Assembly: GCA_019746155.1 (NCBI GenBank)
Contig: JAIESJ010000049.1
Location: 1 to 35,242 of the forward strand
Direction of reading: 5' to 3'
Source: Burkholderiales bacterium
GTDB taxonomy: Bacteria > Pseudomonadota > Gammaproteobacteria > Burkholderiales > SG8-41
Length of the DNA stretch: 35,242 nt
The notes under the pieces were generated by a model. The model had not been told where the DNA came from. It saw only the letters and a list, made by a program, of their open reading frames with translations, and did no database searches. This document shows, piece by piece, positions 11,473-26,900 of this stretch. Every line of letters starts with the position of its first letter. Position 1 is the stretch's first letter. The translations under genes were made by a program, and so were the position numbers.

Positions 11473-12828
11473 TCATGTTATGCGTTTTCTGGCGAGCAGC
11501 GCCAGCGGCACGCCGAGCAGTAGCACGCCGATCCCGAGCTGCGCGCCGACGCTGCCCGGGTCTTTCGACATCGCATAGTTTGCGCTGGACCAGAGCATGA
11601 ACGCGCACATCGCGATGAACAGCATCGGCGTGAGCGGATACAGCGGCACGCGGAACGGGTTCCCGGAGAGCGGCTGCTGGCGCCGCAGCACGAACAGCGA
11701 CACGCCGGTCAGCATGAAGAACAGCCAGAAGGCCGGTGCGGTGTAGGCGACCATGGTCTCGAAGCCGTCCGGCGTGAACGAAGCGAGCAGCACCAGCATC
11801 AACGCCACCGCGCCCTGCAGCAGCAGCGCGTTGACCGGCGCGTTAGATTGCTCCTTCCATATGCCGAGCGCGCGGAACACCGGGAAATCGCGCCCCACCG
11901 CGTAATTGGTGCGGGCGCCGGTGAACACCGTGGCGTTGAGCGTGGACAGCGCGGCGGCAATCACGATCAGGCTCAGCACGATCGCTCCGGCATCGCCGAG
12001 CGTGGCTTTCATCAGATCGGCGGCGACGGCTTTCGACGCTTTCATGCCGTCGAGGCCCAGGACATTGAGATAGGCCAGGTTGAGCAGCACGTAGAGCACC
12101 GTGACGATGAGAATGCCCAGCACCAGGGCGCGCACGATATTGCGCCGCGCATCGCGGATTTCCGACGTGAGATAGGCCGCCTCGTTCCATCCGCCGTAAG
12201 TCAGCAGAATGAAGATCAGCGCGAGCTGCGAAAACATCGGCCCGGACGACGGCGCCGGCGCCGGCGCCGCCGGCGCGGCGCTGCCGCTCAAGCCCGCGAC
12301 GATCACGGATATCACCGCACAGGCCAGCGCGGTGGTCAGGATGGTCTGCAGCAGTTTGCTCTCGCGCGTGCCGGCGATATTGAGCACGGTGATGCCGGCG
12401 ACAGCCAGCATCGCGTAAATCACCGGACTCCTGGGTCCCAGGGCGACAAGCTGGGTCGCATAGTCGCCGAACACGAAAGCGATCGCGGCAATCGCGCCGG
12501 TTTGCACCACGCTCATGCGCGCCCAGGCAAACAGAAACGCAACCCCGCCACCGAAAGCGCGATTCAGAAAATAGTATTCACCGCCGGTATTCGGAAAAGC
12601 ACTGCCGAGTTCTGCGTAACACAGCGCGCCGACCAGCGAAATGACGCCGCCCGCGACCCACAGCGCGATGAACACCTGCTCGCTCGAGACGCTGCCGGCG
12701 ACGATCGAGGGCGCCTTGAAAATGCCAGCGCCGATCACGATGCCGACGATCATCGCCACCGCATCGAGCATGGTCAGCGTCGGCCGCGGTTGCACCGCGG
12801 CCGCGGCACGAGGTTCGCCGCTCACCAC
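11473..12828 (-). CDS. APC-family amino-acid permease
   Basis: A 451-residue membrane transporter with about twelve hydrophobic segments. The first helix carries the APC-superfamily signature GIVIGAGIFKAPS, followed by the conserved helix-3 region YAELGSAFPNTGGEYYFLNRA. It probably exchanges or imports amino acids across the inner membrane; the substrate is unknown. An Ala/Pro-rich loop near residue 185 corresponds to a GC-rich codon run at 12249-12282. Translation starts at GTG 12828, overlapping the stop of the exported methyltransferase-fold gene upstream by seven bases, so the two are translationally coupled. Confidence 0.92.
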   Translation of the reverse strand: MVSGEPRAAAAVQPRPTLTMLDAVAMIVGIVIGAGIFKAPSIVAGSVSSEQVFIALWVAGGVISLVGALCYAELGSAFPNTGGEYYFLNRAFGGGVAFLFAWARMSVVQTGAIAAIAFVFGDYATQLVALGPRSPVIYAMLAVAGITVLNIAGTRESKLLQTILTTALACAVISVIVAGLSGSAAPAAPAPAPSSGPMFSQLALIFILLTYGGWNEAAYLTSEIRDARRNIVRALVLGILIVTVLYVLLNLAYLNVLGLDGMKASKAVAADLMKATLGDAGAIVLSLIVIAAALSTLNATVFTGARTNYAVGRDFPVFRALGIWKEQSNAPVNALLLQGAVALMLVLLASFTPDGFETMVAYTAPAFWLFFMLTGVSLFVLRRQQPLSGNPFRVPLYPLTPMLFIAMCAFMLWSSANYAMSKDPGSVGAQLGIGVLLLGVPLALLARKRIT

Positions 12829-13730
12829 GGCACGCTTCCATCCGTCTCCAGCGCGCTCATGCGCAGTTCACCGCGCGCCTTCAGTTGCGCCTTCCACGGC
12901 AGCGGTTTCTGCCCGCCTATCGTCACCGTGCCCTCGATGACATCATCCCTGACGCGCCCCTGGAAGCGGTGTTTAGCGAGCCCTGCGCCCTGCGGCAGCT
13001 CCGCCTCAAAGCTCACCTGATCGCCGCGCACCTGGAACAGGGGCAGGCGCGCCGGCTTGCCGTCGACCCGCGCGTCCCCGCCCACTTTCTGGAAGCTCTG
13101 ATCGAATTCAAACTCGTAGATCACGCCGCGCCCGCCAGTGTAAATCAGCGATTCCCATTTGCCGGCGATTTTTGCCGGCACGATATAGAAAAAGATGTAG
13201 CTCTTGCCGGGGTCGCCGACCTGTTTTTCCGGCACATCGAGCGTCTTCTGCTCGTCCGGATGCCATTCCCCCATGTCGTAATCGTGGGTCACCACGCGCG
13301 TGCCCGGCTTAAGTGCCAGCAGCTTGGGCCGCAGCTTCTCGTTCATCTCGGGCAGCAGGTAACTCGTAATCACGGTCGCGTGCGAAAGATCGGCCTCGAA
13401 CAGATTTTGCTCGACGAACTGCGCCCGTTCGGCGACCCCCTCCCGGCGCGCGCTTTCACGCGCTTTCTTCAGAAGGTAGGCGTCCAGGTCAACGCCGAAG
13501 CCGCGCGCGCCGAATTTTTTGGCCGCAGTGATCACGATGCGGCCGTCGCCGGAACCCAGATCGATGATGAAATCGGAGGGACCGACTTTCGCCATCTCCA
13601 GCATCTCCTCGACCACGACCTGCGGCGTCGGCACATAGACGACGTCGCCCTTGCCGTCCTGGGCCGTCGCGGACAATGCGGTCAGCGACAGCAGCAGCGT
13701 GCAAAACCGCCAACGTTTGATGAAACTCAT
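12822..13730 (-). CDS. Exported methyltransferase-fold protein, copy A
   Basis: A 302-residue protein, with the start at ATG 13730 behind GAAGGAGCGGTG; longer in-frame starts lack a ribosome-binding site. The N-terminus MSFIKRWRFCTLLLSLTALS followed by ATA-QD is a Sec signal peptide without a twin-arginine motif. The mature protein begins with YVPTPQVVVEEML and a class I methyltransferase domain: motif I DLGSGDG at 57-63 and the acidic GVDLD after beta-2. YLLPEM and the family-specific HDYDMGEW follow. The last 100-110 residues form a beta-rich domain of unknown role. The gene overlaps the amino-acid permease start by seven bases and follows copy B by 90 bp. SAM binding is predicted by fold; how a periplasmic protein would obtain SAM is unclear. 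Confidence 0.85.
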   Translation of the reverse strand: MSFIKRWRFCTLLLSLTALSATAQDGKGDVVYVPTPQVVVEEMLEMAKVGPSDFIIDLGSGDGRIVITAAKKFGARGFGVDLDAYLLKKARESARREGVAERAQFVEQNLFEADLSHATVITSYLLPEMNEKLRPKLLALKPGTRVVTHDYDMGEWHPDEQKTLDVPEKQVGDPGKSYIFFYIVPAKIAGKWESLIYTGGRGVIYEFEFDQSFQKVGGDARVDGKPARLPLFQVRGDQVSFEAELPQGAGLAKHRFQGRVRDDVIEGTVTIGGQKPLPWKAQLKARGELRMSALETDGSVPW

Positions 13731-13820
13731 CACCGCTCCTTCGTTTTCAGAAATATTACATGGCCCGTTGGCGGAGGAAAAACGCCGCCGCACCGATGAA
13801 CCCGGGTCGCCTCATCGCCG

Positions 13821-14774
13821 CTAGTTCGGCATCTGCGGCAGTTGCGGCGGCTTGAGCGAGGCGTGCGCCGGCTCCCAGAGCTCGGTACGCGTTGCGTTCC
13901 ATGCGAGCTGCCGCCCTGCCTGGTCGCGCATGATTTGCGCCTGCCCCTCGATCGCGTTATTGACGATGCGGCCGGAGAACTGGTAGCGCAGGGACGCGCC
14001 ATTGTCATTCACGACGACCGAGAAACCGATTTGAGTGCCGGCAAGCTTCGCATCCTCTATCGCGACTTTGCGGCCATCGACCTCCACCGTGCCTTCGATG
14101 TTCTGGAAATTCTGGTGGAGCGCCAGCTCGAAATTCAGCGGCTTGCCTTCCACCGGGAGCTGCCAGCGCCACTTTCCGGAGACCGTCGCCGGCATGATCC
14201 AGTAAAACACCTTGCTCCTGTGGTCGCGCCCCACCGGTTTATCGGGAGCATCGAGGATGAGCGACAGGTCCGGCGTCCATTCCCCCATGTCGTAATCATG
14301 GGAGACGATGCGCGTGCCGGGCTTGAGCATGGCGAGCAGTCTGGGGCGCACCATCAGATTGACTTCCGGCAGCAGGTAAATGGTGAGCACGGTGGCCCGG
14401 CTCACATCGGTTTCATAGAGGTCGCGCGCATAGAACTTGGCGCGGTCGGCCACACCGGCCCTGGCTGCGAGCCTGTTGCCCATCGCCACCAGCCGCTTGT
14501 CGAGATCGACGCCGAAGCCGCGCGCGCCGTATTTTTTCGCCGCGGTGATGACCATGCGCCCGTCGCCCGAGCCGAGATCGATCACATAGTCCTTCGGCCC
14601 GACCTGGGCGACTTCCAGCATCTTGTCGACGACGTTCTGCGGCGTCGGCACATAGGGCGTATCGCCGTAATCCTGGGTGAAAGCCGGCGCCGAAACGAAG
14701 CCGGTAACCAAAAACACGCCGCAAAACTTCGCGGCGATATGACTTGTCTTGCGTGCTGCCGTGCCAAATATCAT
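13821..14774 (-). CDS. Exported methyltransferase-fold protein, copy B
   Basis: A 317-residue paralogue of copy A, with the start placed at ATG 14774 (AAAGG upstream). The N-terminus to about residue 34 is a signal peptide (hydrophobic core FCGVFLVTGFVSAPAF). It has YVPTPQNVVDKML, motif I DLGSGDG (about 67-73), GVDLD, YLLPEV and HDYDMGEW, and a C-terminal beta-rich region ending in a Pro-rich tail. The reading frame remains open upstream into a truncated copy (14775-15119), so a 5' fusion cannot be excluded, but the signal peptide argues for an internal start. It is probably co-transcribed with copy A and the permease. Confidence 0.85.
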   Translation of the reverse strand: MIFGTAARKTSHIAAKFCGVFLVTGFVSAPAFTQDYGDTPYVPTPQNVVDKMLEVAQVGPKDYVIDLGSGDGRMVITAAKKYGARGFGVDLDKRLVAMGNRLAARAGVADRAKFYARDLYETDVSRATVLTIYLLPEVNLMVRPRLLAMLKPGTRIVSHDYDMGEWTPDLSLILDAPDKPVGRDHRSKVFYWIMPATVSGKWRWQLPVEGKPLNFELALHQNFQNIEGTVEVDGRKVAIEDAKLAGTQIGFSVVVNDNGASLRYQFSGRIVNNAIEGQAQIMRDQAGRQLAWNATRTELWEPAHASLKPPQLPQMPN

Positions 14775-15119
14775 TGCTAAAGCCTTTCGGTTCTGAACTT
14801 GATTCCATCCGCCGGCAATGCGCTTCGCGTTCCAGTCGAGCCTGCCCCGGATGCGCTTGCCGGAAAGCGCGGCACTGCCGGCAATGGCGTCGCCTTCGAT
14901 CCTGCCGTCGAGCTCGTACCTGGCCGGATCGCCATTCACTTCGGCGGTGAAGTTGAAACTGATCTGGTCGCCGCGCAGCCTGGGATTCTGCAAGCTCACG
15001 CTGCGGATGCCGGGCTTGAGCTCGAGCAGCCTGGAGCGCAGCTCCAGGTTGACGCGCGGCAGCAGATACATGGTGATCACAGTCGCCTGGGAAAAATCGG
15101 TGTCGAACAGATCGCACTT
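14775..15119 (-). pseudogene. Internally deleted fourth copy of the exported methyltransferase family
   Basis: In the same frame as copy B, minus-strand codons from about 15113 read DLFDTDFSQATVITMYLLP, matching the late methyltransferase core of copies A and B, then reach LKPGIR. The sequence then jumps to SLQNPRLRGDQISFNF and continues through the C-terminal beta domain to LDWNAKRI. About 90 codons around the HDYDMGEW motif are missing, as are the signal peptide and motif I. The original stop codon is lost, so the frame runs into copy B. This is a decayed tandem duplicate. Confidence 0.75.
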
Positions 15120-15565: not shown

Positions 15566-17179
15566 ATGCCACTGCTCTACGCGATCGTTTTCATCTCCGG
15601 CGGCGCGATCCTGGCGCTCGAACTGCTGGCCTCGCGCATCATGACGCCCTACTTCGGCGTCAGCCTGTACATCTGGACCGGCATCCTGTCGATCACGCTG
15701 GTTTCGCTCGCGCTCGGCTACTGGGCGGGCGGCCGCTACGCCAACGGCCGTGACAGCAAGCCGCTGCCGGTCGCCCGGCTGGTACAGGGTTACGCGCTGA
15801 TGCCGGCCGTGGCCGCGCTTGCCATCGTCGCGGCCTGCCTCGTCTACCCCCATCTTTTTTCACCGCTCTCGATGTGGAGCCTGGTGTTCGGCGCTTTCGC
15901 GGCCTGCCTGATCCTGCTGTTCCTGCCGCTGGTCGCGACTTCCGCGATGAATCCGCTGCTGGTGGCCATTTTCCTGCAAAGCACCGGCAGGCAGGCAGGC
16001 GATGCCGGTGCCGGCAAGGTGTTTTTCGTGAGCACCATCGGCTCGGTCGCGGGCGTGCTCGTCACCGCATTCGGGCTGATCCCCTATACCAGCAACTTCG
16101 CCGCAACGCTGGTCGTCGCACTGACGCTGGCGCTGCTCTCGCTGGTGACCGCGGCTGTACCACCCGCACCGCTCGCTGCGCGCAAAACCATCGCTGCCAC
16201 TGCGATGACTGGCGCACTGGCTTCGGGACTGCTGCTATGGCAGGCCGACGCCTACACCGGGCGCATGGGACCGGTGAGTTATGGTGACAGCAGCTGGCGC
16301 GTCGAGGCCGCCCACGGCTCGCTGTTCGGTACGGTGAAAATCCTCAAAAGCGAGCCCGAGCGCGACTCGGGCCGTTTCCGGCGCATCTACTTTCACGACG
16401 GCCTGATCCAGAACACCGTCGATTCGAACGGCAGATCGATGTCGTTCTATACCTATGCGCTGGAAGCGCTCGCCTATGCCTACCGCCCGGAAATGCGCAC
16501 CGCGCTGGTGCTGGGAATGGGTGCCGGCATAGTGCCGATGCAGCTTACAGCGCGCGGCGTGCAAGTCGAGGCAGTGGAAATCGACCCGATCTCGCTGCGC
16601 GTCGCGCAGCGCTTCTTCGGCTTCGACCCCGCCAGGGTCCGCGTCCACCAGGCCGATGCACGCGCCTTCCTGCACCACTGTCCGCAGCGTTTTGACGTCG
16701 TGGTGCTGGATCTGTTTCACGGCGACGGCACGCCGGATTACCTGGTCACGCGGGAATTCTTTCGCGACCTGAAGCAGTGTCTCTCGAAGCGCGGCGTGGC
16801 GGTGTTCAACACTTTCGCCGATCTCGAGCGCCCGGTCAGTTACGCGCACTTTCTTGCAACCCTGCAATCCGAACTGCCGCATATCATGCTCTACCGCCCC
16901 GACTGGCCGGGGGCGACACACATCAACAGCTTCGTCGTCGCCGGTGCGGAACAACCTGCCGCGCCCGTCAAAGTCACGCTCGACTATGTGCCCGAGCGCC
17001 ACAGCGAAGCGCTATGGGCCATGCTCGCCCGCCCGATCCCGCTCAACGCATCCCTGCTGGCAGGCGGCGTGGTCGTCACCGATGCGCGCAACGCCGCCGC
17101 ACTCGACACCGCCCTGACCCAAGTCATCTACCGCCGTGCGGTAGTCGAGGCGCTTCCCAAGGAATTGCTTTTAAATTAA
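15566..17179 (+). CDS. Membrane protein with C-terminal spermidine-synthase-like domain
   Basis: A 537-residue fusion of a membrane domain (about residues 1-225, six to eight hydrophobic segments) and a Rossmann-type aminopropyltransferase-like domain (about 240-510), the architecture often annotated as fused MFS/spermidine synthase. The nucleotide-binding loop is LVLGMGAGIVPMQL rather than the GGGDGG of true spermidine synthases. EAVEIDP is the acidic ribose-binding position, and VVVLDLFHGDG takes the place of the usual catalytic D-x-x-D/P loop. Polyamine synthesis is therefore not assured. The catalytic domain should face the cytoplasm. The ATG has no strong ribosome-binding site. It is divergent from the exported methyltransferase-fold cluster, and its role there is unknown. 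Confidence 0.85.
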   Translation: MPLLYAIVFISGGAILALELLASRIMTPYFGVSLYIWTGILSITLVSLALGYWAGGRYANGRDSKPLPVARLVQGYALMPAVAALAIVAACLVYPHLFSPLSMWSLVFGAFAACLILLFLPLVATSAMNPLLVAIFLQSTGRQAGDAGAGKVFFVSTIGSVAGVLVTAFGLIPYTSNFAATLVVALTLALLSLVTAAVPPAPLAARKTIAATAMTGALASGLLLWQADAYTGRMGPVSYGDSSWRVEAAHGSLFGTVKILKSEPERDSGRFRRIYFHDGLIQNTVDSNGRSMSFYTYALEALAYAYRPEMRTALVLGMGAGIVPMQLTARGVQVEAVEIDPISLRVAQRFFGFDPARVRVHQADARAFLHHCPQRFDVVVLDLFHGDGTPDYLVTREFFRDLKQCLSKRGVAVFNTFADLERPVSYAHFLATLQSELPHIMLYRPDWPGATHINSFVVAGAEQPAAPVKVTLDYVPERHSEALWAMLARPIPLNASLLAGGVVVTDARNAAALDTALTQVIYRRAVVEALPKELLLN

Positions 17180-18217: not shown

Positions 18218-19084
18218 TTACTGCAACGCCGTCTTCGCCGCACGCGTCGCCGTCCAGCGCGCGCTCTTGCCACCGCCCAGATCGACCGTGCCTTCCATTC
18301 TGTCGCCCGCAACGCGGCCCCGGAACATCTGGCGCAAGCCATCCGCAGCGATGGCAAAGCCGATGTCCTCGCCACGCAGCGTCGGCTGCAGGAGCTTGAG
18401 GTTCCTGCCCCCCGAGTTCACCGTGCCCTCGAAATTCTGATAAGTCTGCCGCAGCGCAGCCTGATAATGTGATCCTCCCGCCACCGCGATGCGCCAGTTG
18501 CCGGCGATCTTGGCCGGAACGATCCACAGATAAATCGTCGCCCGCGCCACGCCGTTGACCTTCTCCTTCTCCGGCACGTCGAAAGTAAACTCGTCGTCGT
18601 GCTGCCATTCGCCGAAATGATAGTCGTGCGACACCACGCGCGCGCCGGGCCGGAGTTCGGTATAGATCTTCGCGCTCAGATTTTTCATCATTTCCGGCAG
18701 CAGGTATAGCGTGAGCACCGTGGCGCGACTCAAATCGGCCTTAAACACGTCCCGCACCTCGAACTGCGCGCGGTCGGCGATGCCCAGCCGACTGGCTTCG
18801 TTATTGCTCAGTTTGACCAGAGCGGGATCGATGTCGACGCCGAAGCCGCGCGCCTTGTAGCGCTTTGCCGCGGTCAGCACGATCACGCCGTCGCCGGAAC
18901 CGAGATCGATGACGAAATCGTCCGGCCCGACTTTCGCCATGGCCAGCATCTGATCGACGACGACCTGCGGCGTCGGCACATATGGCCCGCCCGATCTTTC
19001 CACTTCCGCCGCGAATACCTGCGGCGCCAGCAGCGCGACGCATAACATCGCGCCGCGCGCCGCATGCTTCAAGCCTGCAAGCAT
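18218..19084 (-). CDS. Exported methyltransferase-fold protein, copy C
   Basis: A 288-residue paralogue of copies A and B. The start at ATG 19084 follows GGGGGAC; a Sec signal peptide covers about residues 1-26 (core GAMLCVALLAPQVF, cleavage after FAA). YVPTPQVVVDQML leads into motif I DLGSGDG (60-66), GVDID, YLLPEM and HDYHFGEW. The C-terminal 110 residues are beta-rich, with TYQNFEGTV matching the other copies. It is 28 bp downstream of the exported metallo-beta-lactamase-fold gene, so the two are probably co-transcribed. It is more diverged than A is from B. Confidence 0.87.
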   Translation of the reverse strand: MLAGLKHAARGAMLCVALLAPQVFAAEVERSGGPYVPTPQVVVDQMLAMAKVGPDDFVIDLGSGDGVIVLTAAKRYKARGFGVDIDPALVKLSNNEASRLGIADRAQFEVRDVFKADLSRATVLTLYLLPEMMKNLSAKIYTELRPGARVVSHDYHFGEWQHDDEFTFDVPEKEKVNGVARATIYLWIVPAKIAGNWRIAVAGGSHYQAALRQTYQNFEGTVNSGGRNLKLLQPTLRGEDIGFAIAADGLRQMFRGRVAGDRMEGTVDLGGGKSARWTATRAAKTALQ

Positions 19085-19112
19085 ATATGTCCCCCGGTTC
19101 CACGCGCTCAAC

Positions 19113-19940
19113 TTAAAATTCCAGCTTGTCGCCGGGATTGATCGCATGCACCTTGGTCGAGGTGCTGCCCAGCGCCTCGATGTATTCCTTGGGCGTGCCG
19201 CGCAGGAAAGGATTGGTCCCGTAGTGCATGGGGATCGCATGTTTCGGCTTCAGCCACTCGTTGGTGGCATACGCCGCATCCCTGGGGCTCAGCACGAAGC
19301 GCCCGCCGATCGGAATCATCACCAGGTCCGGCTTGTAGTAGTCGGCGATCAGCTTCATGTCGCCGAACAGTCCGGTGTCGCCCATATGATAGATCTTGAA
19401 GCCGTTCTCCAACTCAATGATGTAGCCGACCGGCTCGCCGCCGACCAGGGTTTCGGGCTTGCCCTGGGCGTTCGGCCACAGCAGTTCCGAGCTGTGCTCG
19501 GCATGCGTCTGCGTGATCTTCACGCCGGGGAAGGGATTGATGGTGCCGCTTTTGTTCATGCGCGGCGCCAGTTCGGCCGGCAGCACGCCCATCGTGGTCA
19601 GTGACTGGTTCATGCCCGCCGGCCCCCACATCGGAACCTTGTGCTTTTTGGCGAGATCGGGCGCATCGCCGAGATGGTCGCCGTGCGCGTGGGTGACCAG
19701 AATCAGGTCGATCTTGCCGACCGCATCAAGATTCTTGTATTGCTCGGGAGTCTTGGGATTTCTGGTGATCCACGGGTCGACCAGGATCACTTTGCCGCCG
19801 GGTGTGGTGATGCGCATCGCCGACTGGCCCAGCCACAGTATTTCGATTTTCCCGCTTGGCTGCGCGAACGAAACGCCCGCGGTCAGCAGCAGCGACACAC
19901 CGGCCATCAATACCAACAGATTGCGATACCAGCTTTTCAT
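19113..19940 (-). CDS. Exported UlaG-like metallo-beta-lactamase-fold hydrolase
   Basis: A 275-residue protein with a signal peptide (MKSWYRNLLVLMAGVSLLL, cleavage after SFA). The start at 19940 is chosen for its strong GGAGGGGGGAAG site. The mature protein begins with KIEILWLGQSAMRITTPGG and contains VDPW and the metal site THAHGDHLGD (His84, His86, Asp88, His89), with a later HAEHSSE and MGDTGLF and C-terminal MHYGTNP, as in UPF0173/UlaG-type hydrolases. These enzymes usually hydrolyse phosphoesters or lactones in the cytoplasm, so the signal peptide is notable. It is the first gene of a two-gene unit with methyltransferase-fold copy C. Confidence 0.9.
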   Translation of the reverse strand: MKSWYRNLLVLMAGVSLLLTAGVSFAQPSGKIEILWLGQSAMRITTPGGKVILVDPWITRNPKTPEQYKNLDAVGKIDLILVTHAHGDHLGDAPDLAKKHKVPMWGPAGMNQSLTTMGVLPAELAPRMNKSGTINPFPGVKITQTHAEHSSELLWPNAQGKPETLVGGEPVGYIIELENGFKIYHMGDTGLFGDMKLIADYYKPDLVMIPIGGRFVLSPRDAAYATNEWLKPKHAIPMHYGTNPFLRGTPKEYIEALGSTSTKVHAINPGDKLEF

Positions 19941-20008
19941 GACTTCCCCCCCTCCAGGGTGGTTAAGAGCGCATAACAAAAAGACCAAGTTCAAAACAAA
20001 AAAGCATT

Positions 20009-20125
20009 AGCCACAGAGAGCACAGAGACTACAGAGGAAAAACAAACTACGAAATATGATTCGTATCTGATTGTTTTAAAAAATATTTATGGATTCTCTC
20101 TGTGAACTCTGTGTCCTCTGTGGCT
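20009..20125. repeat. 117-bp palindromic repeat built from CACAGAG units
   Basis: The left arm AGCCACAGAGAGCACAGAG (20009-20027) is the inverse of CTCTGTGTCCTCTGTGGCT (20107-20125) with two mismatches; CACAGAG-like heptamers recur inside both arms and the centre is AT-rich. Similar CACA(G/A)AGGACAC(G/A)(A/G)AG wording appears at 32090-32108. It looks like an ERIC-type intergenic repeat and may terminate transcription from both sides. Confidence 0.55.
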
Positions 20126-20150
20126 GACAGTTTTTTTATTTTTAGCCACT

Positions 20151-20918
20151 CTAAGGCTTAACAAACTTCAGCACGAACTCGTCATTCGGAATCTTCGGCT
20201 TGAATACCGACGCATCGCGCGGATCGTCCGGGTTGCGCAGGAAACCGGCTTCGCCGACCAGTTTGAAGCCCGCGGCTTCCACCTCCCGGCGCAGCACGCT
20301 TTCCTCGATGCGGTGCAGGGTCTTGCCCTCGCTCACGCCCGTGCCGGGACGCCCGGAATGGTCGGCGACAATGTACAGACCGCCCGGCTTCAGCGCCGTG
20401 AACACCGCACGGTTCATTTTATTCCGGTCGACGCCCAGCCAGACGGTGTCATGATAAACAAAATTGAACGTCACGAGGTCGAGGTTGCGCGCTTCCGGCG
20501 GCACCGGGTCGTCGAATTCGCGCACCAGGGGAACCACGTTGCGCATCGCCGGCTTTTCCAGCCGCTCGCCAAAGCGTCCTTTGACGATGTTTTCCAGAAG
20601 ATAACGGCTGTTCTGGGCGTAGACGACGCCGTCCGGCCCCACGACGCGTGCCAAAAGCTCGGTGTTGTAGCCGCCGCCCGCCCCGAGATCGAGAACGCGC
20701 ATGCCCGGCCGCACCCCGTAAAACGCCAGCAGTTTCTCCGGCTGACGACGCTGGTCGATCACCCGGTCCGCGTCGCTGCGGTCCGGGCTGTGCACCTGCC
20801 AGAAATAGAAGTTGTCCGGCAGCGGCCGCTCGGGCAGAAGACCGGCGCAGCCGCTCATGAAAAGCAGCACCGCCAATACAAACCCGTGCAGCCTGCCTTC
20901 CCCGTTTGTTTGCGTCAT
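20151..20918 (-). CDS. Lipoprotein with SAM-methyltransferase domain
   Basis: A 255-residue protein starting at ATG 20918. The N-terminus is a lipoprotein signal (hydrophobic FVLAVLLFMSG, lipidated Cys24). The mature part contains VHSPDRSDADRVIDQRRQPE and motif I VLDLGAGGGYNTELLARVVG. LDLVTFNFVYHDTVWLG and LKPGGLYIVADHSGRPG follow. These match class I methyltransferases of a group distinct from copies A-C. It should be anchored to the inner or outer membrane facing the periplasm. It appears to be a single gene, between a palindromic repeat and a truncated amidohydrolase. Confidence 0.85.
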   Translation of the reverse strand: MTQTNGEGRLHGFVLAVLLFMSGCAGLLPERPLPDNFYFWQVHSPDRSDADRVIDQRRQPEKLLAFYGVRPGMRVLDLGAGGGYNTELLARVVGPDGVVYAQNSRYLLENIVKGRFGERLEKPAMRNVVPLVREFDDPVPPEARNLDLVTFNFVYHDTVWLGVDRNKMNRAVFTALKPGGLYIVADHSGRPGTGVSEGKTLHRIEESVLRREVEAAGFKLVGEAGFLRNPDDPRDASVFKPKIPNDEFVLKFVKP

Positions 20919-20936
20919 CGCCCGCCCTTCCCTTAT

Positions 20937-21179: not shown

Positions 21180-23027
<1,848 letters not shown>

Positions 23028-23042
23028 CATGCCTCCCCGGGT

Positions 23043-24182
23043 TCAGCTGCCAGGCTGGAGAGTGACGCTGATCTCGATCTTGCGACTTTCTCGCAGGACA
23101 CTCAGCCGCACTGCGTCCCCCACCTGGAAATCGTCGAGCCTGGCGAAGAGTTTCGCCACGCTTTCGACCGGCTTATCGTTCACCGCAGTGATGATGTCTC
23201 CCGGAACGAAGCTGCCGTCAGCCCCGAGCCTTGCGCCCTTCAGGCCGGCGGCCTGCGCCGCGGAGCCAGGAGCGACGCGCAGCACCAGCACGCCTTCCAC
23301 GCCGAGCTGTTGGGTGATAGCGCGGTTGAGCGCTTCATCGACCTCGATGCCCAGGGCGGGACGGATATATTTGCCGCGCGCGATGAGTTGCGGCACCACG
23401 CGATTGACCGTATCCACCGGCACGGCAAAGCCTACCCCGGCCGACGCCCCCGAAGGGCTGTATATGGCCGTATTGATGCCGATCAGGCGACCGGCGGAAT
23501 CCAGCAGCGGCCCGCCGGAGTTGCCGGGGTTGATGGCGGCATCAGTCTGGATCAGATGCTCGATGACGCTGCGCTCGTCCTCGCCGGGCAGAGAGCGGTC
23601 CAGCGCAGAAATGATGCCGGTGGTGAGCGTCCAGTCAAGCCCGAACGGGTTGCCAATGGCAAAAACCTTCTGCCCTACCTTGAGGTCGTGACTCGTGCCG
23701 ACCGGGACCGGCGGCGGGCGCTTAATCCCGACGCCGATCCTGAGCACCGCCAGATCGTGCGCGGGGCTCGCGCCCACCAGCGCCGCGCGGTAGTCGCGGC
23801 CGTCATTCAGCCGCACGCGCGCTTCCGAGGCACCGGCGACGACATGGTAGTTGGTGACCACGTGGCCCTTTTCATCCCAGATAAAGCCCGAGCCGGTGCC
23901 TTTCGGTATGGTGAACACGTTGCGTGTCCAGAAATCCATCACGCGTTCGCTGGTCGTGATGTAGACGACCGAGTCCTTGGACTTCTCGAACAGTTCGATG
24001 GTGCTCTTCTCATCGGCGGCGAGATCGCCGCGCGGCGTGACCACCCGTGGGGCAGCCTCGCCCCCAAAGACAGTGCGCTCGATCCAGGACAGCATGTACC
24101 AGGCCATGAGGACAACCAACACGGCTGTGATGAGCCAGAGCAGGCGACGCAGGAACGGATCGGCGGACGAGCGATAGGTCAT
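23043..24182 (-). CDS. HtrA/DegP-DegS-type serine protease with one PDZ domain
   Basis: A 379-residue protease; ATG 24182 is chosen because GAGGGAGGGAAT precedes it. One N-terminal membrane helix (about 12-32) anchors it to the inner membrane, as in DegS. The trypsin-like domain carries the triad His113 (VVTNYHVV), Asp143 (AHDLAVL) and Ser222 (GNSGGPLLD). A single PDZ domain occupies about 278-370. It would cleave or sense misfolded envelope proteins. It sits between psiE-like and ftsH genes, an association known from transmissible stress-tolerance loci. Confidence 0.94.
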   Translation of the reverse strand: MTYRSSADPFLRRLLWLITAVLVVLMAWYMLSWIERTVFGGEAAPRVVTPRGDLAADEKSTIELFEKSKDSVVYITTSERVMDFWTRNVFTIPKGTGSGFIWDEKGHVVTNYHVVAGASEARVRLNDGRDYRAALVGASPAHDLAVLRIGVGIKRPPPVPVGTSHDLKVGQKVFAIGNPFGLDWTLTTGIISALDRSLPGEDERSVIEHLIQTDAAINPGNSGGPLLDSAGRLIGINTAIYSPSGASAGVGFAVPVDTVNRVVPQLIARGKYIRPALGIEVDEALNRAITQQLGVEGVLVLRVAPGSAAQAAGLKGARLGADGSFVPGDIITAVNDKPVESVAKLFARLDDFQVGDAVRLSVLRESRKIEISVTLQPGS

Positions 24183-24271
24183 ATTCCCTCCCTCAGGCAA
24201 AAAAAGGCTTCAGCACCATTCATGATCATGTTGACCGGCACCAGGGTGAGCAGCGGCCCCTCCTGAGTTTC

Positions 24272-24832
24272 TCAACAGCGTTCATTCCCCGTGGGCCGGG
24301 ATAAGCGCCCGCGTGCCGCCCGCTCGCCATCGCCGCCCGGCGCGCCGGGTTGGTTTACGCCTTGCCGCTCGAGGCAGTCTTCGCGCTCCTGCATGAGCCA
24401 ATAAACGATCCCCAGCACCAGCAGCGCGCCCGCGAGCGCGGCGATCTTGGGGGCCCCAATCTCGAGATCGAGGATGATGAACTTGCGCGCTACCGCGAGC
24501 ATGGCTATCAGGATCACGGTTTTGACCTGAACGATATGGTCCCGCCGCAGCGCCACGCGGATGATCGAGTGCTTGAACTCCATTGCGATGAGCAGCGTCA
24601 TGATCATCCCGAATATCGTCTGAAACACGGCATGGTCGAGCGGGCTTAAAGCCTCGACGGCAAGCAGGAGTACGACCGCGCGGACGAGCTGAAGCAGCGA
24701 AATCATGACGATGACCGAGATCACGCCCGCCAGGATCATCGCGACGACCTGCTCGTAGCGCTCGTAGACCGTCATGATCCGCCATTGCCTGCGGAACTCC
24801 GTGAGCTGCCGATGTGTTCCGGTATCGTTCAT
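24272..24832 (-). CDS. PsiE-like membrane protein
   Basis: A 186-residue protein with four hydrophobic segments (about 28-48, 53-70, 105-121 and 128-145) and the PsiE pattern YERYEQVVAMILAGVISVIV, EFKHSIIRVALRRDHIVQVK and ARKFIILD. PsiE (phosphate-starvation-inducible) is of unknown biochemical role but is a recurrent member of heat-resistance loci. A charged, Pro/Gly-rich tail of about 40 residues follows the last helix. It is the first large gene of the leftward psiE-degP-ftsH unit. Confidence 0.85.
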   Translation of the reverse strand: MNDTGTHRQLTEFRRQWRIMTVYERYEQVVAMILAGVISVIVMISLLQLVRAVVLLLAVEALSPLDHAVFQTIFGMIMTLLIAMEFKHSIIRVALRRDHIVQVKTVILIAMLAVARKFIILDLEIGAPKIAALAGALLVLGIVYWLMQEREDCLERQGVNQPGAPGGDGERAARGRLSRPTGNERC

Positions 24833-24992
24833 CGTTCTTGTTTGTGTCGGATGCGGAAATTTTCGGAATCCGTTTTGCTCGTGACAAGCACATTTCTCTT
24901 GGTACCCGCCTCATGATACCAGCATCAAGCCATTACCTGTATTCGACCCCGGCACGCTTCAAGATTGTTTCGTTTTCCGTCATCGGTCACAC

Positions 24993-25118
24993 TCACAGCG
25001 CGCGGCGCGGGTTAAAGGCAAGCTCGCGCGCCATCGTTTCATCAGGCTCGGAGAGGGCGATCTGAAAGGCGGTAGTCAGCTTATCGAGCACATGTGTCTT
25101 TTCGTGTCGGGGAAACAT
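24993..25118 (-). CDS. Small ORF (41 aa) directly after a heat-shock promoter
   Basis: The minus strand encodes MFPRHEKTHVLDKL, then FQIALSEPDETMARELAF and a final NPRRAL before TGA at 24993-24995. I do not recognise the family. The second half uses codons typical of this genome. The ATG at 25118 lies only about 9 bp past the proposed -10 box, so it would be translated from an almost leaderless transcript; no ribosome-binding site is present. It may be a genuine small stress protein, a leader ORF of the psiE operon, or the C-terminal relic of a lost gene. Confidence 0.35.
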   Translation of the reverse strand: MFPRHEKTHVLDKLTTAFQIALSEPDETMARELAFNPRRAL

Positions 25119-25126
25119 GGTGCCGG

Positions 25127-25155
25127 AAAATGGGGCTGCCTGCACCCTTTTCAAG
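25127..25155 (-). promoter_or_regulatory. Sigma-32-like promoter for the psiE-degP-ftsH unit
   Basis: On the minus strand CTTGAA (25155 down to 25150), a 14-bp gap and CCCCATTTT (25135 down to 25127) match the RpoH consensus nearly perfectly. It drives leftward toward the 41-codon ORF and the psiE-like, degP-like and ftsH genes, and gives a shared heat-shock logic with the divergent hsp20 genes. Confidence 0.72.
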
Positions 25156-25288
25156 GAGGCCGCTTGCTCCATACCCGTATGATAAACGGGGGAAGTGGGG
25201 TGTCATGTTCGGTAACCGGTTCGAGAGCAGGCGGCCGGTCATGCAAGCGCCATGCGGTCGGGACACCGCGTCGGCCTCGCTTCCGGGA

Positions 25289-25318
25289 CTTGATTCCGGA
25301 GATACAGGCCACCATATA
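25289..25318 (+). promoter_or_regulatory. Sigma-32-like promoter for the triple hsp20 operon
   Basis: CTTGAT (25289-25294), a 15-bp gap and CACCATATA (25310-25318). The -10 element differs from CCCCATNTA at one or two positions. It would give a leader of about 155 nt before the first hsp20. Confidence 0.5.
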
Positions 25319-25400
25319 AGGTTTGCGCGAATCCCGGCGGGCCAACGCATCCGCAGGCTGATCTTGATCAACGGGCGCTTGCGTTTGCCGCTCGTGTTTC

Positions 25401-25481
25401 GTTGATCTCGCCGCCGCGTGGCGGCGGAGTGGATCACTCAACCGATTTTTTGATGGATGCCATTTTTAGGAGGCGAATAAC
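25401..25481 (+). promoter_or_regulatory. Structured 5' leader of the hsp20 operon, possible RNA thermometer
   Basis: A 7-bp GC stem CCGCCGC/GCGGCGG (25411-25417/25421-25427) is nested in GTTGA/TCAAC (25401-25405/25438-25442). Downstream, a U6 run (25445-25450) could pair weakly with the AGGAGG Shine-Dalgarno at 25468-25473, as in fourU thermometers, which are common on hsp20 mRNAs. The pairing is speculative. Confidence 0.3.
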
Positions 25482-25934
25482 ATGTATCAATCCATTCTGT
25501 CCGCGCCTGGCGATCTGTTCGCCGAACTGGACCGACTCCGGCGCGAGATGCAGCAGAGTTTCGGAGGGCTGGGCATGCCATCCAGCATCCGCGCGGTGAC
25601 CCGGGGATCGTTCCCCGCGATCAACATCGGCAGCACGCCGAAGTCGGTGGAAGTTTACGCGTTCGCGCCGGGAATCGATCCAGACAAGCTCGATGTGAAC
25701 GTCGATCGTGGCCTGCTCAGCATTTCCGGAGAGCGCAGAAGCGACCTGCCGGAGGAAAGCGGCGAGGTGTCGATATATGCGAGGGAGCGATTCGCCGGAA
25801 GCTTCAAGCGCGTCATCAGTCTGCCTGAGGATGCAGATCCATCGCGCATCGAGGCCAGGTATCGCGATGGCGTTGTCCACATTTCGGTGCAGCGGCACGA
25901 GCCGGCACAGCCCAAGCGTATTGAGATCAGATGA
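25482..25934 (+). CDS. Hsp20/alpha-crystallin small heat-shock protein, first of three
   Basis: A 150-residue holdase with an N-terminal arm (DLFAELDRLRREMQQSF), an alpha-crystallin domain (about 45-138; KSVEVYAFAPGIDPDKLDVN and the signature RYRDGVVHISV) and a C-terminal I-E-I tail. Start ATG 25482 follows TTAGGAGGCG. It opens a rightward operon of three different Hsp20 genes spaced about 30-55 bp apart, divergent from psiE-degP-ftsH. Confidence 0.95.
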   Translation: MYQSILSAPGDLFAELDRLRREMQQSFGGLGMPSSIRAVTRGSFPAINIGSTPKSVEVYAFAPGIDPDKLDVNVDRGLLSISGERRSDLPEESGEVSIYARERFAGSFKRVISLPEDADPSRIEARYRDGVVHISVQRHEPAQPKRIEIR

Positions 25935-25965
25935 GGTTGCCGACAACAGGACCGGAGGAATGAAC

Positions 25966-26343
25966 ATGAGTGACAGGAAAGAGTCTGCGAAGCAGGAACA
26001 ACAGCGCGCCGGCATGACAATCATGCCGGCAGTGGACGTGGTCGAAGATCGCACGGGTATCACCTTGACCGCCGACTTGCCCGGTGTGCCCAAGGACAGG
26101 CTGACCGCACGCGTCGATGGGGAAACCCTGCTCATCGAGGGAGACATTGCGCTGGAAACGGCGGAAGGCATGGAAGCGGTGCATGCCGAGATGCAAGGCA
26201 TGCGCTTCCGGCGGGTCTTCACGTTGAGCCGGGAACTCGACACATCGAAAAGCGAGGCGGCATTCAGGAACGGTGTACTGAGGCTGCGGATCCCCAAAGC
26301 CGAACATGCGCAGCCGCGCAAGATCGAGGTCAAGGTCGGGTGA
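25966..26343 (+). CDS. Hsp20 small heat-shock protein, second of three
   Basis: A 125-residue short form. ATG 25966 is preferred over ATG 25960 because the CCGGAGGA site ends at 25959, too close to the latter. The N-terminal arm is only about 20 residues (SDRKESAKQEQQRAG). The alpha-crystallin domain runs from PAVDVVEDRTGITLTADLPG to AFRNGVLRLRIPK, ending in I-E-V-K-V. The short arm suggests smaller or mixed oligomers with its neighbours; this is inference. Confidence 0.93.
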   Translation: MSDRKESAKQEQQRAGMTIMPAVDVVEDRTGITLTADLPGVPKDRLTARVDGETLLIEGDIALETAEGMEAVHAEMQGMRFRRVFTLSRELDTSKSEAAFRNGVLRLRIPKAEHAQPRKIEVKVG

Positions 26344-26396
26344 TTACGGCGGCCCCGCGGGCCGCTCCACTTCTCGAATTGACGGGAGTTGTCGAT

Positions 26397-26900
26397 ATGA
26401 AAGCGCTTACGGAATTGAGACAGGGTTTGGAAGAAGTGTGGGAATCGGTTTCTGAGGGTTGGCGGCGTTTGCGGGAGTCCGCCGCCGGTGCGTTGACCCG
26501 CTTCAGGCCCGGGCAGAAATCATCGCTTCCGGCTGGCGTCGAAGACGATCTTTACCTGCCGTCTTCGGGATGGGCGCTGCTCGCGGGTGACGTGTTCGAG
26601 GATGCCGGGAAAATAGTGGTTCGCCTCGAAGTGCCGGGCATGGAGAAAAGCGACTTCAACATCGAAGTGCGCGACGATGCTCTCATCGTGCGGGGCGAAA
26701 AGCGGTTTGAGCGGGAGGCGAGCGAAGGGCGGTACCGCATCCTGCAGTGCGCCTATGGCACTTTCCAGCGCGTCGTTCCCCTGCCCGCGCCGGTGATCGC
26801 GAATAAAGCGAAAGCAACGTACCGTAACGGGGTGCTGAAGATCGAATTGCCCAAGGCCGGGCCCGCCAAGGCCAAAGCGATCGAGATAACAATCGGATAA
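26397..26900 (+). CDS. Hsp20 small heat-shock protein, third of three
   Basis: A 167-residue protein; ATG 26397 has GACGGGAG upstream, while the longer frame from 26340 overlaps the preceding gene without a site. The N-terminal arm of about 60 residues is helical (LRQGLEEVWESVSEGWRRLR), which distinguishes this type in stress-tolerance loci. The alpha-crystallin domain has VVRLEVPGMEKSDFNIEVRD and TYRNGVLKIELPK, ending in I-E-I. Last gene of the rightward operon. Confidence 0.93.
   Translation: MKALTELRQGLEEVWESVSEGWRRLRESAAGALTRFRPGQKSSLPAGVEDDLYLPSSGWALLAGDVFEDAGKIVVRLEVPGMEKSDFNIEVRDDALIVRGEKRFEREASEGRYRILQCAYGTFQRVVPLPAPVIANKAKATYRNGVLKIELPKAGPAKAKAIEITIG

Follow-up and report, generated by a model that had tools for sequence, protein, structure and literature searches.

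The gene at positions 20151..20918 (minus strand) of the 35,242-nucleotide stretch of DNA analyzed here (the window) encodes a 255-residue predicted lipoprotein with the class I methyltransferase fold. Judged from its homologs, its pocket is conserved but non-standard when set against the textbook SAM site, rather than decayed. SAM chemistry is taught as cytoplasmic, and an exported lipoprotein of this fold is puzzling, since the usual methyl donor is believed to be confined to the cell interior. A widespread, selectively maintained exported family would mean one of two things: beyond the inner membrane, either SAM (or a related molecule) is accessible, or the commonest methyltransferase fold has been put to another use. 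In the window's bacterial family, the cluster of several exported SAM-fold proteins and a permease offers a concrete candidate system.

Start codon and export signal

On the minus strand, the coding sequence runs from an ATG at 20918 to a last codon at 20154-20156 and a stop at 20151-20153, and a purine-rich, Shine-Dalgarno-like AAGGGAAGG (20926..20934, minus strand) stands seven bases 5′ of the ATG. The protein begins with a classic lipoprotein signal, MTQTNGEGRLHGFVLAVLLFMSGC-AG, which has the sequence features expected of an Lgt/LspA substrate: a positively charged n-region and a hydrophobic stretch lead up to a lipobox ending in Cys24 (GFVLAVLLFMSGC-AG). From the N-termini read and from a rule applied to the homologs, we assign residues 1-23 (20850..20918, minus strand) to the signal peptide and M21-S22-G23-C24 (20847..20858, minus strand) to the lipobox, with Cys24 as the predicted lipidation site and Ala at +2.

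The preliminary description of this gene spoke of a clear lipobox at Cys24, and homologs agree with it. We collected 95 distinct homologs (44-80% identical) from relatives of the window's lineage and from GTDB genomes, 93 of them with a readable N-terminus. A simple mechanical rule classed 76 of these 93 as lipoproteins, 14 as signal peptidase I (SPI) substrates and three as neither; by eye, the last three comprise one lipobox (L088), one SPI signal (L114) and one protein with no readable signal (L070). A lipobox or SPI signal is thus found in 90 of the 93 by rule and in 92 by eye. The lipobox class of the rule is not loose, since control ORFs from the same loci were placed in it in only 34 of 594 cases, and a chance lipobox can be ruled out by comparison with these controls. 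The SPI class is loose, taking in 153 of the 594 controls and also a few lipoproteins (e.g. L005 and L066). Exported homologs span the Beta- and Alphaproteobacteria and the Myxococcota, though their signal sequences diverge; cultured strains with a homolog include Noviherbaspirillum humi (L081) and Minicystis rosea (L091). More distant relatives in other Pseudomonadota (27-46% identity) are mostly exported as well, with a few unclear N-termini. A quickly built tree of the mature domains requires about five changes between lipoprotein and SPI signals and places the SPI forms almost entirely within the Alphaproteobacteria. Export, rather than the type of anchor, is therefore the conserved property. 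One relative (L009; G005:C34:13505-15104) has two tandem copies of the lipoprotein gene, which share 67% and 60% identity with that of the window; both have a lipobox.

Could the protein nevertheless be an ordinary cytosolic methyltransferase, its signal peptide an artifact of annotation or of the chosen start codon? In-frame alternative starts do exist downstream (TTG15, GTG17, ATG21, GTG42, GTG53 and later), and GTG42, the first that removes the lipobox, could give a 214-residue protein; moreover, two relatives (L023 and L151) have no signal and are possibly the only cytosolic members found. We consider this reading highly improbable, however, because a scan upstream of GTG42 found no purine-rich or Shine-Dalgarno sequence, and because signals recur in nearly all of the 93 homologs, at a lipobox rate that the controls do not approach. 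A start-site artifact is ruled out on these two grounds.

The extracytoplasmic location of the lipoprotein is thus well supported at the level of sequence. According to the enterobacterial rule, lipoproteins without Asp at +2 are sorted to the outer membrane. The window protein has Ala25 at this position, and among the 76 lipobox homologs the residue is Ala in 48 and Asp in none; by this rule, the outer membrane is its most likely location.

Fold, cofactor site and pocket

The mature part is predicted to adopt the seven-strand, Rossmann-like fold of class I SAM methyltransferases. An AlphaFold2 model built from 74 homologs has a mean pLDDT of 92.6 (about 98 in the core), and its top Foldseek match is 3dh0, a SAM-dependent methyltransferase (E=5e-13), which is also the top PDB match by sequence. 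The fold assigned earlier from the sequence is upheld by this model. Pfam returns PCMT (PF01135, the highest score) and Methyltransf_31, each barely over threshold, and none of the NCBIfam models comes near its cut-off. We reject an identity as PCMT, for which the Pfam match covers only residues 62-108 and NCBIfam pimt scores 24.6 against 159 bits, as UbiE (29.8 against an equivalog cut-off of 378 bits) and as ArsM (NF041537, 37 against 510 bits; NF008823, 28.6 against 263 bits). The lipoprotein is related to an exported subfamily from the window's bacterial family with the motif EIWPGGGWY (alignment A3), which we take to be COG4798, 'predicted methyltransferase'. The two profiles match with 99.6% probability over 196 columns, and the lipoprotein shares with EIWPGGGWY-type proteins both similarity across the domain and an export signal. 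A BLAST comparison with copy C, one of three exported methyltransferases nearby (copies A-C), gave nothing significant outside the motif I stretch, and the lipoprotein consequently belongs to a different subfamily, as had been proposed. Our search of the open-access literature returned no description or published function of this exported lipoprotein family, a widespread family that has apparently gone unstudied and is a variant of a known fold.

Within the domain, the cofactor site departs from the canonical pattern. Motif I, the glycine loop, reads D77-LGAGGG-Y84 (20667..20690, minus strand), so that GxGxG is GAGGG in the window protein; among 96 homologs G83 and Y84 are invariant, while 40 retain G79 and 76 retain G81. 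In class I methyltransferases, the SAM ribose is bound by an acidic residue, Asp or Glu, where strand β2 ends. The lipoprotein has N103 here (20610..20612, minus strand), aligned with Asp in 3dh0 and with Glu in 1dl5, 4o29 and 1o54. The residue is non-acidic in 84 of the 96 homologs (N, S, T and others occur) and Asp in only 12. The core had been called intact, and this stands for the fold but not for the cofactor site, since the acidic ribose ligand is mostly lost and one motif I glycine, G81, varies. With Asp103 kept in these 12 homologs, part of the family still has a pocket that looks like a SAM site.

Other positions of the pocket, in contrast, are highly conserved. Y155-H156-D157, right after strand β4 (20448..20456, minus strand), has an invariant Tyr and His; D186-H187-S188, at the end of β5 (20355..20363, minus strand), has an invariant Asp and a His kept in 92 of 96; and H202-R203, in the loop that leads to the helix at 206 (20310..20315, minus strand), is invariant at both positions. 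In the predicted secondary structure, Y155, H156, D186, H202 and R203 lie at the ends of β4 and β5 and in the loop after β5; D232 and D246 are likewise invariant among the 96. The class I fold has its substrate sites at the β4 and β5 ends and in the post-β5 loop. In comparison with a relative of the same genus (L002), dN/dS is about 0.16 (0.113/0.725 over the full CDS), and the mature part alone gives dN 0.092 and dS 0.693. These values point clearly to purifying selection, and together with the invariant pocket residues they lead us to reject a pseudogene or decayed domain.

A conserved pocket without the usual ribose ligand might also mean that the exported fold has been repurposed beyond SAM methylation, as a binding protein or as an enzyme that relies on a different cofactor or on a metal bound by the conserved His and Asp residues. 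This is the main rival to an active SAM-type transferase, because the ribose acid has been lost and we know of no periplasmic SAM; the open-access literature that we searched yielded no source of it. The drift of G79 and G81 beside an invariant H156, D186, H202 and R203 fits such a change, and SpnF (4pne), a cyclase of the same fold, is among the structural matches. Against it, G83 and the fold itself are kept, Asp103 survives in 12 of 96 homologs, and the exported neighbors described below retain a canonical motif. We regard repurposing as a real possibility, but on balance a doubtful one.

A cluster of exported methyltransferases

In the window, the lipoprotein gene is followed by an exported MBL-fold hydrolase (19113..19994, minus strand) and by copy C (18218..19240, minus strand), an exported FAM173/archaeal lysine-methyltransferase-like protein that matches NF041081 at 1.8e-29, below the cut-off, and whose signal peptide starts near 19087. 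Beyond these lie a transmembrane spermidine-synthase-like protein (fused MFS/spermidine synthase; 15566..17179, plus strand; NF037959, 172 bits against a cut-off of 40), the exported methyltransferases copy B (13821..14792, minus strand) and copy A (12822..13793, minus strand), and an APC amino-acid permease (PF13520; 11473..12828, minus strand). In four relatives (L040, L046, L054 and L056), the MBL-fold hydrolase is a lipoprotein too.

Mapping the window's genes onto related loci revealed a gene order that recurs in the window's family: FAH, TctC-B-A, the lipoprotein, sometimes the MBL hydrolase, a methyltransferase of copy C type, the spermidine-synthase-like membrane protein (opposite strand), two to six A/B-type methyltransferases and the APC permease. 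The earlier remark that two exported methyltransferase-fold lineages lie close together can now be restated as a conserved gene cluster. A cluster can hold up to eight exported FAM173-like methyltransferases, and wherever the start is readable (loci L031-L067), the A/B/C-type copies carry signal peptides. The motif DLGSGDG is present in 65 of 65 distinct exported FAM173-like neighbors, with an acidic residue after β2 as read from segments. In 14 related loci, the spermidine-synthase-like gene lies within the cluster of exported methyltransferases and is read from the other strand, a position that suggests membrane-associated chemistry of decarboxylated SAM or polyamines.

Two further observations concern the window itself. 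At 21180-26900, the lipoprotein is separated from the Tct genes by ftsH, three hsp20 genes, a PsiE-like gene and a gene for a DegP-like protease, and none of these has a match in the related loci. The gap between the lipoprotein and MBL genes (19993-20141) holds an inverted repeat, imperfect but strong, that contains CACAGAG units and has a folding z-score of −7.2. With at most one mismatch allowed, its core, CACAGAGGACACAGAG, was counted 42 times in the genome, whereas the reversed control gave 0; the element is a dispersed repeat.

The cluster does not account for the lipoprotein family as a whole. The window's bacterial family has a vastly expanded set of exported FAM173/archaeal lysine-methyltransferase-like proteins, with 1-17 matches of A/B/C type per genome in 73 of 74 genomes; the lipoprotein is present in 28 of the 74. 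Outside this family, the flanks searched contained neither A/B/C-type genes nor any consistent neighbor of the lipoprotein. The function of the lipoprotein thus seems independent of copies A-C, and the cluster looks like an add-on rather than the original context. On the mature-domain tree, the cluster-associated lipoproteins group closely.

The same gene contents bear on whether the lipoprotein might be an exported scavenger or sensor, binding periplasmic SAM, SAH, MTA or polyamine-related molecules and passing them to the neighboring permease or spermidine-synthase-like protein. Both partners are there in the cluster, and many binding proteins have a lipid anchor. We find this quite improbable, however, given that homologs outside the window's family have no permease or spermidine-synthase-like neighbor and that the invariant acceptor-side residues are of a catalytic type.

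Proposed function and comparison with known systems

We tentatively favor, with less than even confidence, an envelope-facing enzyme that transfers a group from SAM or a relative, on the strength of the active-site-like conservation of the pocket, the Asp103 retained in part of the family and the canonical SAM motif of the neighbors. Weighing against it are the ribose acid missing from 84 of 96 homologs, the variable G81, the lack of a consistent neighbor in the flanks searched outside the window's family and the failure of the open-access papers searched to yield a source of periplasmic SAM. In addition, a 2020 review of protein modification outside the bacterial cell (PMC10450907) catalogs methylation of secreted and surface proteins, and the part of it that we consulted describes no exported methyltransferase of the lipoprotein's kind. 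In the favored reading, the lipoprotein would be exported by Sec, processed by LspA and most likely anchored in the outer membrane, facing the periplasm. Its mature part, which combines the class I methyltransferase fold with a cofactor pocket that is modified yet conserved, would act as a group-transfer enzyme of the envelope, most likely a methyltransferase using SAM or a close relative such as decarboxylated SAM. The donor would be delivered to the periplasm and held by the glycine loop, from where the group would pass to an acceptor on the side lined by H156, D186/H187 and H202/R203. In the window's family, the enzyme would work alongside the cluster's other exported SAM-fold proteins. Here we infer the outer-membrane location, catalysis, the identity of the donor, an envelope substrate and cooperation with the neighbors. 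Of the extracytoplasmic function suggested in the preliminary description, the location is borne out by the conserved export signal, and SAM-dependent methylation at that location belongs with these inferred steps.

A more specific version seems unlikely as a whole, namely that the exported methyltransferase-fold set, one member being an outer-membrane lipoprotein, carries out periplasmic SAM-type (or decarboxylated-SAM-type) transfer with cofactor supplied through the cluster's permease and membrane protein, and so modifies proteins or lipids of the envelope.

Among known systems, PCMT (protein-L-isoaspartate O-methyltransferase) resembles the lipoprotein only in the glycine loop region, residues 62-108, and the arsenite methyltransferase ArsM shares the general fold and gives weak NCBIfam matches. 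The Aquifex aeolicus SAM-dependent methyltransferase 3dh0 has in common with it the class I fold and a His after β4, but is 19% identical, has Asp at the ribose position and, in a chain of 219 residues whose match starts about 24 residues in, leaves little space for an exported leader. The exported FAM173-like neighbors (NF041081) are of the same fold class and lie in the same cluster, but belong to another subfamily, with the canonical DLGSGDG and an acid after β2, and carry SPI signals instead of a lipobox. The EIWPGGGWY subfamily is only about 30% identical, is mostly of SPI rather than lipoprotein type and lacks Y155, D157 and H202-R203. Like the lipoprotein, however, it has signal peptides in the members read, a His at 156, E/D-H at 186-187, as in D186-H187, and a non-canonical β2 end.
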